Below are positions 3,148 to 25,813 of a stretch of DNA of 45,555 bases, in pieces; position 1 is the first letter of the stretch, and each line of letters begins with the position of its first letter. Where the stretch lies: positions 1-45,555 of the forward strand of contig CAMCMT010000021.1 in the NCBI GenBank assembly GCA_945875915.1, given 5' to 3'. The DNA is from Synechococcus sp. UW140 (GTDB lineage: Bacteria > Cyanobacteriota > Cyanobacteriia > PCC-6307 > Cyanobiaceae). A program made the translations under genes and the position numbers. The notes under the pieces are model-generated. The model ran no database searches. It saw only the letters and a list, made by a program, of their open reading frames with translations, and was not told where the DNA came from.

Positions 3148-4644
3148 ATGGAGTTCCGCTGCACCTCGACCCCGGCGGGCAGCTGGAGCGGGGACACCCT
3201 GGCCGTGGGTCTGTTCAGCGGCGGAGGCGGCCCCCTTAAGGCGGTGCTGGAAGCGCGTTTGGGTGCAGCCTTGGTGGAGCGGCTGGACCACCGCCAGTTC
3301 AAGGGCAAGACCGGCGAAAGCCTGCGTTTGGAATGGCTGGGAACGACACCGAGCGTGCTGCTGCTGGTTGGCCTGGGGGACCCCGCCGAGTTCGGCCTCG
3401 ACGGCGTTCGCCAGGCAGCGGCCCGGATCGCCAAGGCGGCCCAGGTCCAGGGATGCACCAGCCTGGGGATCGCCCTGCCGGTGGAAGGCCTGGAGCCCCA
3501 GGCAGCAGCGGCCACCATCGCCCAGGCCGTGCGCCTCAGCCTGTTTAACGACCAACGCTTCAAAAGCGAAGCAGAAACCAAGCCCCTGCCCGCATCGGTA
3601 GAGCTACTGGGCTTCCCCGAGGCGGCAGCCGAGCTGCTGGGCAGCGGTCTGTTCAGCGGCGTCGACGCCCTCTGCAGTGGCGTGGAACTGGCCCGCCAAC
3701 TGGTCGCTGCCCCTCCGAACCAGGTCACCCCCCAGGCCCTAGCCGACTGCGCCGCCGCGATCGCAAGCGAATTTGGGTTGGAGCTCAAGCTGCTGGAGCG
3801 CAGCGACTGCGCCGCGTTGGGCATGGGCGCCTACCTGGGGGTAGCCCAGGGCTCGGACCTCCCCCCCAAGTTCATCCATCTCACCTACCGGCCCCCCGGG
3901 GAGGTGCGCCGCCGGGTGGCCCTGGTGGGCAAGGGTCTCACCTTTGACTCCGGCGGCTACAACCTCAAGACGGCCGGCTCCCAGATCGAAATGATGAAGT
4001 ACGACATGGGCGGCAGCGCCGCCGTGTTGGGAGCAGCCCGGGCGATCGGCCAACTCCAACCCGAGGGAGTGGAAGTGCACGTGATCGTGCCGGCCTGCGA
4101 AAACATGATCAGCGGCGGGGCGATTCACCCCGGCGACATCCTCACGGCCTCCAATGGCAAAACCATTGAGGTGAACAACACCGACGCCGAAGGACGGTTG
4201 GTGCTGGCCGATGCCCTCGTCTATGCCTGCGGCCTGGAGCCCGATGTGGTGGTGGATCTAGCCACCCTCACCGGGGCCTGTGTGATCGCCCTAGGCCATG
4301 AGATTGCCGGGCTCTGGTCCCCCAGTGACGTCCTAGCTGGGGCCCTGGACGCCGCCGCCAGCCTGGGGGGCGAGCAGGTCTGGCGCATGCCCCTGCAAGC
4401 CACCTACCGGGAAGGGCTCAAAAGTGGCGTGGCGGATCTGAAAAACACCGGTCCCCGGCCGGGCGGTTCGATTACCGGCGCCCTGTTCCTCAAGGAGTTT
4501 GTCAGCCCCGGCCTGGCCTGGGCCCACCTCGACATTGCCGGCACGGTTTGGAGCGACAAGGGCCGGGGCCTGGACCCGGCTGGCGCCACCGGCTTTGGCG
4601 TCCGCACCCTGGTGAACTGGGTGGTTGCTGGCGCTCCCGCCTAG
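3148..4644 (+). CDS. pepA: Leucyl aminopeptidase (cytosol aminopeptidase, M17)
   Basis: The 498-residue protein is full length for the M17 family. It removes N-terminal amino acids from peptides in the cytosol, as a hexamer with two metal ions per active site. The family signature NTDAEGRL is at residues 344-351, and the metal- and substrate-binding block VGKGLTFDSGGYNLK contains Lys262. The N-terminal third (residues 1-160) is the variable macrodomain-like region and the C-terminal part is the catalytic domain. The ATG at 3148 gives the expected N-terminus. It is followed after about 30 bp by a small membrane-protein gene on the same strand. Confidence 0.95.
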   Translation: MEFRCTSTPAGSWSGDTLAVGLFSGGGGPLKAVLEARLGAALVERLDHRQFKGKTGESLRLEWLGTTPSVLLLVGLGDPAEFGLDGVRQAAARIAKAAQVQGCTSLGIALPVEGLEPQAAAATIAQAVRLSLFNDQRFKSEAETKPLPASVELLGFPEAAAELLGSGLFSGVDALCSGVELARQLVAAPPNQVTPQALADCAAAIASEFGLELKLLERSDCAALGMGAYLGVAQGSDLPPKFIHLTYRPPGEVRRRVALVGKGLTFDSGGYNLKTAGSQIEMMKYDMGGSAAVLGAARAIGQLQPEGVEVHVIVPACENMISGGAIHPGDILTASNGKTIEVNNTDAEGRLVLADALVYACGLEPDVVVDLATLTGACVIALGHEIAGLWSPSDVLAGALDAAASLGGEQVWRMPLQATYREGLKSGVADLKNTGPRPGGSITGALFLKEFVSPGLAWAHLDIAGTVWSDKGRGLDPAGATGFGVRTLVNWVVAGAPA

Positions 4645-4675
4645 GCTGGCCCTCTAACAGCGCCCCTGCCGCCCG

Positions 4676-4903
4676 ATGGCCGTACGCAAGATCCGCTGGT
4701 TCGTGAAGGCCCAACTCGGGGTGCTGTTGCTGCCAGCGGGACTGTGCCTCTTCGGCAAGGCGGTGGAACGGCAAACCCTCCAGGCCATCGGCCAAAACCA
4801 AGGACCCTGGGCCTGGTACGGGGCCCTCGGCCTGATTGCCATCACCGCCGGGGTGGGGCTGATGATCGAAAGCGGCCTGTTGCGCGGCTATCCCAAGCAG
4901 TAG
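4676..4903 (+). CDS. Small hypothetical membrane protein, two transmembrane segments
   Basis: A 75-residue protein with a basic N-terminus (MAVRKIRWFVK), a first hydrophobic segment at about residues 10-28 and a second at about 45-65. A short polar loop separates them and the tail is basic. I do not recognise a named family, though small proteins of this shape occur beside pepA in related picocyanobacteria as far as I recall. The spacing of 31 bp from pepA and the same strand suggest co-transcription. Function unknown. Confidence 0.65.
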   Translation: MAVRKIRWFVKAQLGVLLLPAGLCLFGKAVERQTLQAIGQNQGPWAWYGALGLIAITAGVGLMIESGLLRGYPKQ

Positions 4904-25255: not shown

Positions 25256-25335
25256 CCATTGACAAGGCCTGCCATTGACAAGGCCTGCCATCGACAAGGC
25301 AAGCCATCGAGAAAGCATTCCAATGCCAAGTAAGG
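25256..25335. repeat. 16-bp tandem repeat array, four to five units
   Basis: CCATTGACAAGGCCTG occurs at 25256-25271 and again, identical, at 25272-25287. Diverging copies follow: CCATCGACAAGGCAAG at 25288-25303, CCATCGAGAAAGCATT at 25304-25319 and a weak fifth from 25320. The array lies in the 280-bp gap between the DUF427 gene and the four-residue-repeat protein gene. Sixteen is not a multiple of three and no ORF runs through it. Confidence 0.8.
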
Positions 25336-25439
25336 CCTAAGGGTCTACCGGCCACGCCGAGGCGTTGAATCCCTCACGGCGCTGCCGGAACACCGGAACC
25401 AACCAAGACCCGCCGCATGATCTCACTTGCTAATTTTGC

Positions 25440-25445
25440 TATAGT
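25440..25445 (+). promoter_or_regulatory. Candidate extended -10 promoter of the repeat-protein gene
   Basis: TATAGT preceded by TGC (an extended -10) lies 35 bp upstream of the ATG at 25481, in an AT-rich pocket. No matching -35 is seen, as expected for an extended -10 promoter. The predicted leader is about 29 nt and has no clear Shine-Dalgarno sequence. Confidence 0.4.
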
Positions 25446-25480: not shown

Positions 25481-25813
25481 ATGACCGAAATCGAAGAAAT
25501 CAACAAACTAGTAACTTTTGCCCTTGTAGACGGAAAATTGCGCATTCAGCAAGTCAATGGCAACATTTGGGGTGACGTCAAGGGCAGTATCGAAGGGAGT
25601 GTCCGAGGCGACATCTTTGGTGATGTCGAAGGCAGCGTCGAAGGCAATGTCGGCTGCGATGTTGGAGCCAATGTGGGCCGCCATGTCCTTGGCAATGTCA
25701 ATGGCAATGTCGAAGGCAGTGTTTGGGGTGACGTCAAGGGCGACGTCTGGGGCAATGTCTATGGAAAAGTAGAAGGAAACCCTGGGAGCGATAGCGATAG
25801 TGAGCCGGCGTGA
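25481..25813 (+). CDS. Small protein built of four-residue x-V/I-x-G repeats
   Basis: From the ATG at 25481 this is 110 residues (the frame is open 11 codons upstream, but those lack any pattern). Residues 1-25 are a non-repetitive head (MTEIEEINKLVTFALVDGKL). From about residue 26 to 101 nearly every fourth residue is Gly and every residue two before it is Val or Ile, for example NIWG DVKG SIEG SVRG, about 19 tetrads, ending in an acidic Ser/Asp tail. The outer positions carry Asp/Asn/Ser, and Trp, Lys, Glu, Phe or Tyr alternate. Such a pattern suggests a narrow beta-solenoid or fibrous fold. No signal peptide is seen. Family and function are not recognised. Confidence 0.8.
   Translation: MTEIEEINKLVTFALVDGKLRIQQVNGNIWGDVKGSIEGSVRGDIFGDVEGSVEGNVGCDVGANVGRHVLGNVNGNVEGSVWGDVKGDVWGNVYGKVEGNPGSDSDSEPA

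Follow-up and report, generated by a model that had tools for sequence, protein, structure and literature searches.

A small acidic protein encoded on a picocyanobacterial chromosome shares, as judged by sequence comparison, the head-plus-tetrad architecture of a family of small phage proteins. Its gene occupies positions 25481 to 25813 on the forward strand of the window, the whole 45,555-nucleotide stretch analysed here, which is contig C21 of a 2.6-Mb genome (Synechococcus sp. UW140). No paper on this tetrad-repeat family was found in the literature. A confident match to a characterised family would have counted against the first-pass annotation, but no model of Pfam, NCBIfam or PADLOC reaches its cut-off for the protein.

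The tetrad-repeat protein and its gene

The ORF starts with ATG and encodes 110 residues. Residues 1-26 (25481..25558, +) form the head, recognised by a phage-only profile and by AF2, which predicts a helix at residues 3-10 and a beta-hairpin of residues 11-16 and 19-25. By eye the head (MTEIEEINKLVTF) is not signal-like, as the original description of a protein lacking a signal peptide had it. Residues 27-98 (25559..25774, +) consist of 18 consecutive tetrads of the form G-[NDS]-[VI]-x. The count depends on the register, and when read as x-V-x-G from Q24 there are 19, which bears out the approximately 19 x-V/I-x-G repeats reported previously. Val or Ile is present in 18 of 18 tetrads and Gly stands at its canonical place in 15 of 18, followed in nearly all by Asn, Asp or Ser. 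In three repeats (residues 59-70) the Gly is displaced by one position. These belong to a central block, GNVGCDVGANVGRHVL (residues 55-70; 25643..25690, +), of which DVGANVGRHVLG is invariant across the aligned orthologues. The longest unbroken run is 8 units, a length reached by 0 of 20,000 composition shuffles (best shuffle, 4), and Tandem Repeats Finder detects an imperfect 12-bp period over the gene. The protein has a pI of 4.26, a net charge of -10 and two Thr among its 110 residues, with no ordered Thr arrays. The tail (25775..25810, +) is acidic here, as had been noted, but neither its length nor its sequence is conserved among the orthologues.

Orthologues with 73-99% identity are found in the window's own genus and in one other genus of the family. 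Between the two genera the synonymous sites are saturated (pS 0.79-0.92), pN is 0.06-0.11 and mean protein identity is 85%. Substitutions fall mostly at third codon positions, for example 9, 7 and 58 changes at positions 1, 2 and 3, respectively. Across 12 orthologues the sense frame alone of the six is open and is the best conserved, with 0 stops against 12-88 in the other frames. The number of tetrads is the same in all orthologues compared, in both genera. Specifically, the variation in copy number of the 12-bp unit for which the strains were to be checked was not seen among the orthologues, nor were there frameshifts in those compared, although frequent frameshifts in relatives had been named as evidence that would count against the protein. 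Because the repeat number and the 73-99% identity are kept despite saturated synonymous sites between genera, the repeat is not a DNA microsatellite. At the level of sequence, these comparisons establish that the ORF is a genuine protein-coding gene and that purifying selection on it is strong, and its divergence pattern is that of an ancient, constrained gene rather than a fast-changing one.

The GC3 of the gene is 0.54, as opposed to 0.74-0.83 in its neighbours, which, together with its accessory presence, upholds the earlier placement in a low-GC accessory pocket. In the window's genus the gene is flanked by DUF427 and pgl (a 6-phosphogluconolactonase/glucosamine-isomerase family gene). In two genomes of the same genus the DUF427-pgl slot holds a different, secreted-looking ORF of 154 aa (YFAGQCMHQRGGANCLIQAN; L332:988-1452, +, and L333:2327-2791, -) and no tetrad gene, indicating that the slot takes alternative genes. 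In the second genus, according to names given by eye from the translations, the gene adjoins an EamA-like and a Coq4-like gene, is flanked by efflux genes and a transposase, or is close to a sensor kinase or a desaturase. No phage genes were found near it in the chromosomal loci surveyed. The several chromosomal sites and the patchy presence (12 of 400 genomes of the family, and 8 of 16 genomes of the second genus) point to an accessory gene of long standing that moves between sites. The carriers, read from their sample names (lake, Baikal, Caspian-type, bloom) or known as Synechococcus strains, appear to form a freshwater or brackish group.

Upstream, an extended -10-like element, TGcTATAGT (25437..25445, +), was read from the sequence as a candidate promoter and is kept in the four same-genus genomes that carry the tetrad gene. 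For the likely promoter suggested earlier this element is the candidate, but a sigma-70 scan for -35/-10 elements gave no match. A 16-bp tandem repeat of 3.4 copies in the upstream spacer, outside the gene (25256..25310), is strain-variable, being found in one close relative (L021) and missing from two other genomes (L020 and L019). An Rfam search returned no match.

Phage relatives and the DUF3310 association

Repeats alone are poor proof of homology, since microsatellites and tail fibres look alike, and for this reason the search profile was limited to phage heads. It was made solely from phage proteins, with the repeats excluded, and run against 860 window ORFs. The tetrad ORF was the sole match (E 5e-4), and the head of the window protein by itself matched at E 1.2e-5. 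This selectivity identifies the protein as a chromosomal member of a family of small acidic phage proteins. In tblastn, proteins of Synechococcus phage S-SKS1 (AGH31745.1; 41%) and Octadecabacter virus DB2 (gp74, URC15576.1; 39%) align across head and repeats. Two DNA-pattern scans of viral contigs in IMG/VR, used to collect small head-plus-tetrad proteins, yielded at least about 27 distinct contigs encoding proteins of the same build.

The phage relatives (S-SKS1, DB2, L047, L092, L122 and L185-L298) share the head T.EE.LxLVxF.....G...I..V followed by tetrads G-[DNS]-[VI]-x and, like the window protein, are small, stand-alone and acidic. They carry 7 to 42 tetrads, whereas the window lineage is fixed at 18. 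All members are acidic, with pI values of 4.1-5.6, and the net charge per repeat unit spans +0.08 to -0.77, a variation which means that the repeats do not conserve a charged surface. Some phage members are extended at the C terminus (INGRxW..ETPxEKxxRLI) or bear DUF3310 as an added domain. The window protein has the head, directly followed by at least seven G-x-[VI]-x tetrads, in a stand-alone acidic chain; it departs from the family in habitat, being encoded on a chromosome between DUF427 and pgl and not by a phage.

Several phage contigs carry more than one member. The phage contig L211 has three paralogues, at 1149-1760, 4109-4363 and 4554-4766 (+), with 41, 14 and 9 tetrads, and L298 and L047 have two apiece. 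A similar module follows the tetrads (approximately RxW..xxTPxEKxxRLI) in L298 (8690-9196, -), L186 (5351-5872, -), L245 (1453-1824, -) and S-SKS1, and has no Pfam match. Other matches were rejected. Those on plasmids (Lactococcus pFI430, Enterococcus and Rhodoferax) proved to be DNA repeats of short period, taken in a different reading frame; in pFI430 the annotation of a hypothetical protein (L028:3987-4457) covers a long, near-perfect 12-bp microsatellite. The inspected matches in other cyanobacterial genera are microsatellite-like or low-complexity proteins without the head, and those in the cyanophages Syn10 and S-RIM2 are large structural-module genes. A second match in the window's own genome, on contig C20 (L002:1326-2834), lies in the long low-complexity N-terminal extension (AGSVAGSMAGNVAG) of a PlsX-like protein outside the family.

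In S-SKS1 and DB2 the family gene sits among small non-structural genes, which in DB2 include a methylase, a single-strand annealing protein and regulators. Among 125 same-strand neighbours in the IMG/VR loci, DUF3310/'nucleotide kinase' is the commonest, followed by DNA polymerase A, exonucleases and ribonucleotide reductase; Thy1, dCMP deaminase and NinG are further neighbours, and portal and terminase appear once each among the neighbour families listed. Among the matches listed from the same scans, 11 of about 27 distinct family contigs carry DUF3310, versus 1 of about 200 non-family contigs. These controls are skewed to tail genes and microsatellites, so that the association makes a good lead but does not amount to proof. 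In two phage proteins (L195:193-786, +, and L278:2006-2846, +) head, tetrads and DUF3310 are fused in one chain, with PF11753 recognised in L195 at E 1.4e-17. In L212, L196, L252 and L288 the DUF3310 gene is at most 130 bp away on the same strand. The phage genes of the family are therefore found in DNA-metabolism surroundings, and fusion to DUF3310 or a position next to it recurs among them. A search that was positive for DUF3310 in phage records found no such gene in the cyanobacterial genomes carrying the tetrad protein.

Predicted fold and solved structures

PHROGs gives weak matches, to gp5 and to tail fibres, and 13 of 24 family members match its gp5 entry, phrog_430. A profile of the family reaches the beta-helix chains of gp5 at E 3e-4 to 1e-3, the V-x-G-[N/D] element being common to both. 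Gly/Val repeats raise such profile scores, and the PDB matches that outscore gp5 (an ARID protein and a pyridoxal kinase) were set aside because they fall on Gly-Met repeats in unrelated proteins. The triple-stranded beta-helix of T4 gp5, though the profile match is weak, is the most relevant solved structure. The consensus of gp5 is VxGxxxxx, once per octad; N or D residues are reported to make a hydrogen-bonded ladder on its helix, and the stretch where the repeat is strongest to form a trimer by itself (PMC4576200). The C-terminal helix of gp5 (phrog_430; PDB 1K28, 4JJ2 and 4OSD) and the window protein both have V-x-G-[N/D] and a super-period of two tetrads, or eight residues. In contrast, V-x-G stands once per octad in gp5 and twice in the window protein, which departs from the VxGxxxxx octapeptide in repeating V-x-G every four residues, the octad being merely a super-period. 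Furthermore, gp5 is a virion spike with a lysozyme domain, while the window protein is a stand-alone chain of 110 aa that lacks one.

Other repeat proteins are less similar in one respect or another. Cyanophage tail-fibre tetrads such as TGNVTGNVTGDV (phrog_30742, S-RIM2 structural protein) have the same period-four G-N-V-x, but x is mostly Thr and the tetrads are short stretches within very large virion proteins, without the head. Bactofilin (PF04519) is likewise a beta-helix with V/G-rich repeats, and its weak match (E 0.049; 14.3 bits) falls below the Pfam gathering score of 27.9. The unit of the pentapeptide-repeat proteins (MfpA/Qnr type), A(D/N)LXX, is chemically alike in its small, D/N and aliphatic residues. 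Their period is five, whereas that of the window protein is four, and there is no Pfam match.

Over 568 tetrads of the family, Ile/Leu pairs two tetrads apart number 22 versus 10.2 expected, a value reached in 0 of 2000 shuffles. Such pairs are depleted at lag 1 and show no rise at lags 3 and 4, and the lag-2 excess survives the omission of any single sequence. Position statistics of the family show no preference of aromatics for alternate tetrads. The Ile/Leu excess suggests that the structural repeat is probably an octad hidden in the tetrads, with the eight-residue spacing of the T4 gp5 triple-stranded beta-helix. The strict period of four described in the first-pass annotation is accordingly correct in that V/I recurs in every tetrad, and incomplete in that it misses this super-period. 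A monomer with one tetrad per face is unsupported, no correlation being raised at lag 3 or 4. AF2 was run on the monomer. With 7 orthologues the pLDDT was 54.7; with 24 family members the head was modelled confidently (block pLDDT 83-91 for residues 1-30) and the repeats poorly (36-71 past residue 40), confidence being lowest at residues 58-72, around the shifted-Gly block. The monomer prediction that had been recommended thus succeeded for the head but not for most of the repeats. Foldseek found no match to the predicted monomer in the PDB or BFVD. Overall, the family probably folds as a capped, oligomeric beta-helical rod.

Proposed role and alternatives

The best explanation, whose chances are put somewhat short of even, is that the protein is a cytosolic, acidic, capped trimeric beta-helix rod of phage origin, now encoded by a chromosomal accessory gene of freshwater picocyanobacteria, and that inside the cell it acts as a scaffold or binds a partner. 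In such a rod the V/I side chains would point inward, the G-N/D pair would form the turn, and two tetrads would make up one structural repeat. By analogy with the T4 gp5 central spike, three chains would be intertwined, the helix-hairpin head could act as cap and as starting point of trimerisation, and the N/D position could supply a ladder. More speculatively, the rod might gather copies of a partner, the DUF3310 nucleotide kinase in phages and some host protein in Cyanobium. A wider proposal, doubtful at present, is that these proteins are an unrecognised class of phage non-structural tetrad triple-beta-helix rods that organise DUF3310-type enzymes, one lineage having been captured by hosts to organise a host partner.

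The strongest of the rival explanations, though an unlikely one, holds that the protein is a monomer, a solenoid of three or four sides in which each tetrad occupies one face, and that as an acidic mimic of nucleic acid it blocks a DNA-binding enzyme. G-[DN]-V-x does resemble A(D/N)LXX minus one residue, every family member is acidic, and the phage relatives are placed among DNA-metabolism genes. Nevertheless, such a solenoid agrees poorly with a correlation raised at lag 2 alone and not at 3 or 4 tetrads, with a charge per unit that ranges from slightly positive to clearly negative, and with the lack of a match to the pentapeptide-repeat family. That the gene serves anti-phage defence or phage exclusion, as a phage-derived part retained by the host against phage assembly or replication, is decidedly improbable. 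A phage-type protein that is accessory and low in GC3, with several chromosomal sites and a slot open to an alternative occupant, would fit this role, but PADLOC gives no match, no adjoining defence genes were noticed in the surveyed loci, and the gene is ancient and constrained, not rapidly changing.

Of the folds suggested originally, a fibre- or rod-like solenoid remains plausible, and ice or surface binding is unsupported. A secreted or surface protein (ice-binding protein, adhesin or fibre) would account for a repetitive sequence of beta-helix type, and phage tail fibres have similar tetrads; it is nonetheless very unlikely given that an export signal is absent by eye, Thr is scarce and the phage homologues are located outside structural modules. 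Finally, the many look-alikes on plasmids and in other cyanobacterial lineages, which are microsatellites or low-complexity sequence, might suggest that a 12-bp DNA repeat is translated by chance and yields no functional protein. This reading, which has almost no probability left, is refuted by the high protein identity at saturated synonymous divergence between genera, the fixed repeat number and the sense frame that alone is open.

The phage protein family described here is absent from the family libraries searched and combines a recognisable head with a minimal, four-residue, beta-helix-like unit. A structure would tell whether four residues suffice for a regular beta-helix, and would decide whether the natural length range of 7-42 units makes the family a possible molecular ruler or design scaffold. 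The link between the phage family and DUF3310 nucleotide kinases is testable, and one lineage of the family has been retained by cellular hosts under strong selection. If the proposed rod class and its host capture prove true, freshwater picocyanobacteria would possess a stable chromosomal gene derived from a class of phage rods, now working with a host partner.
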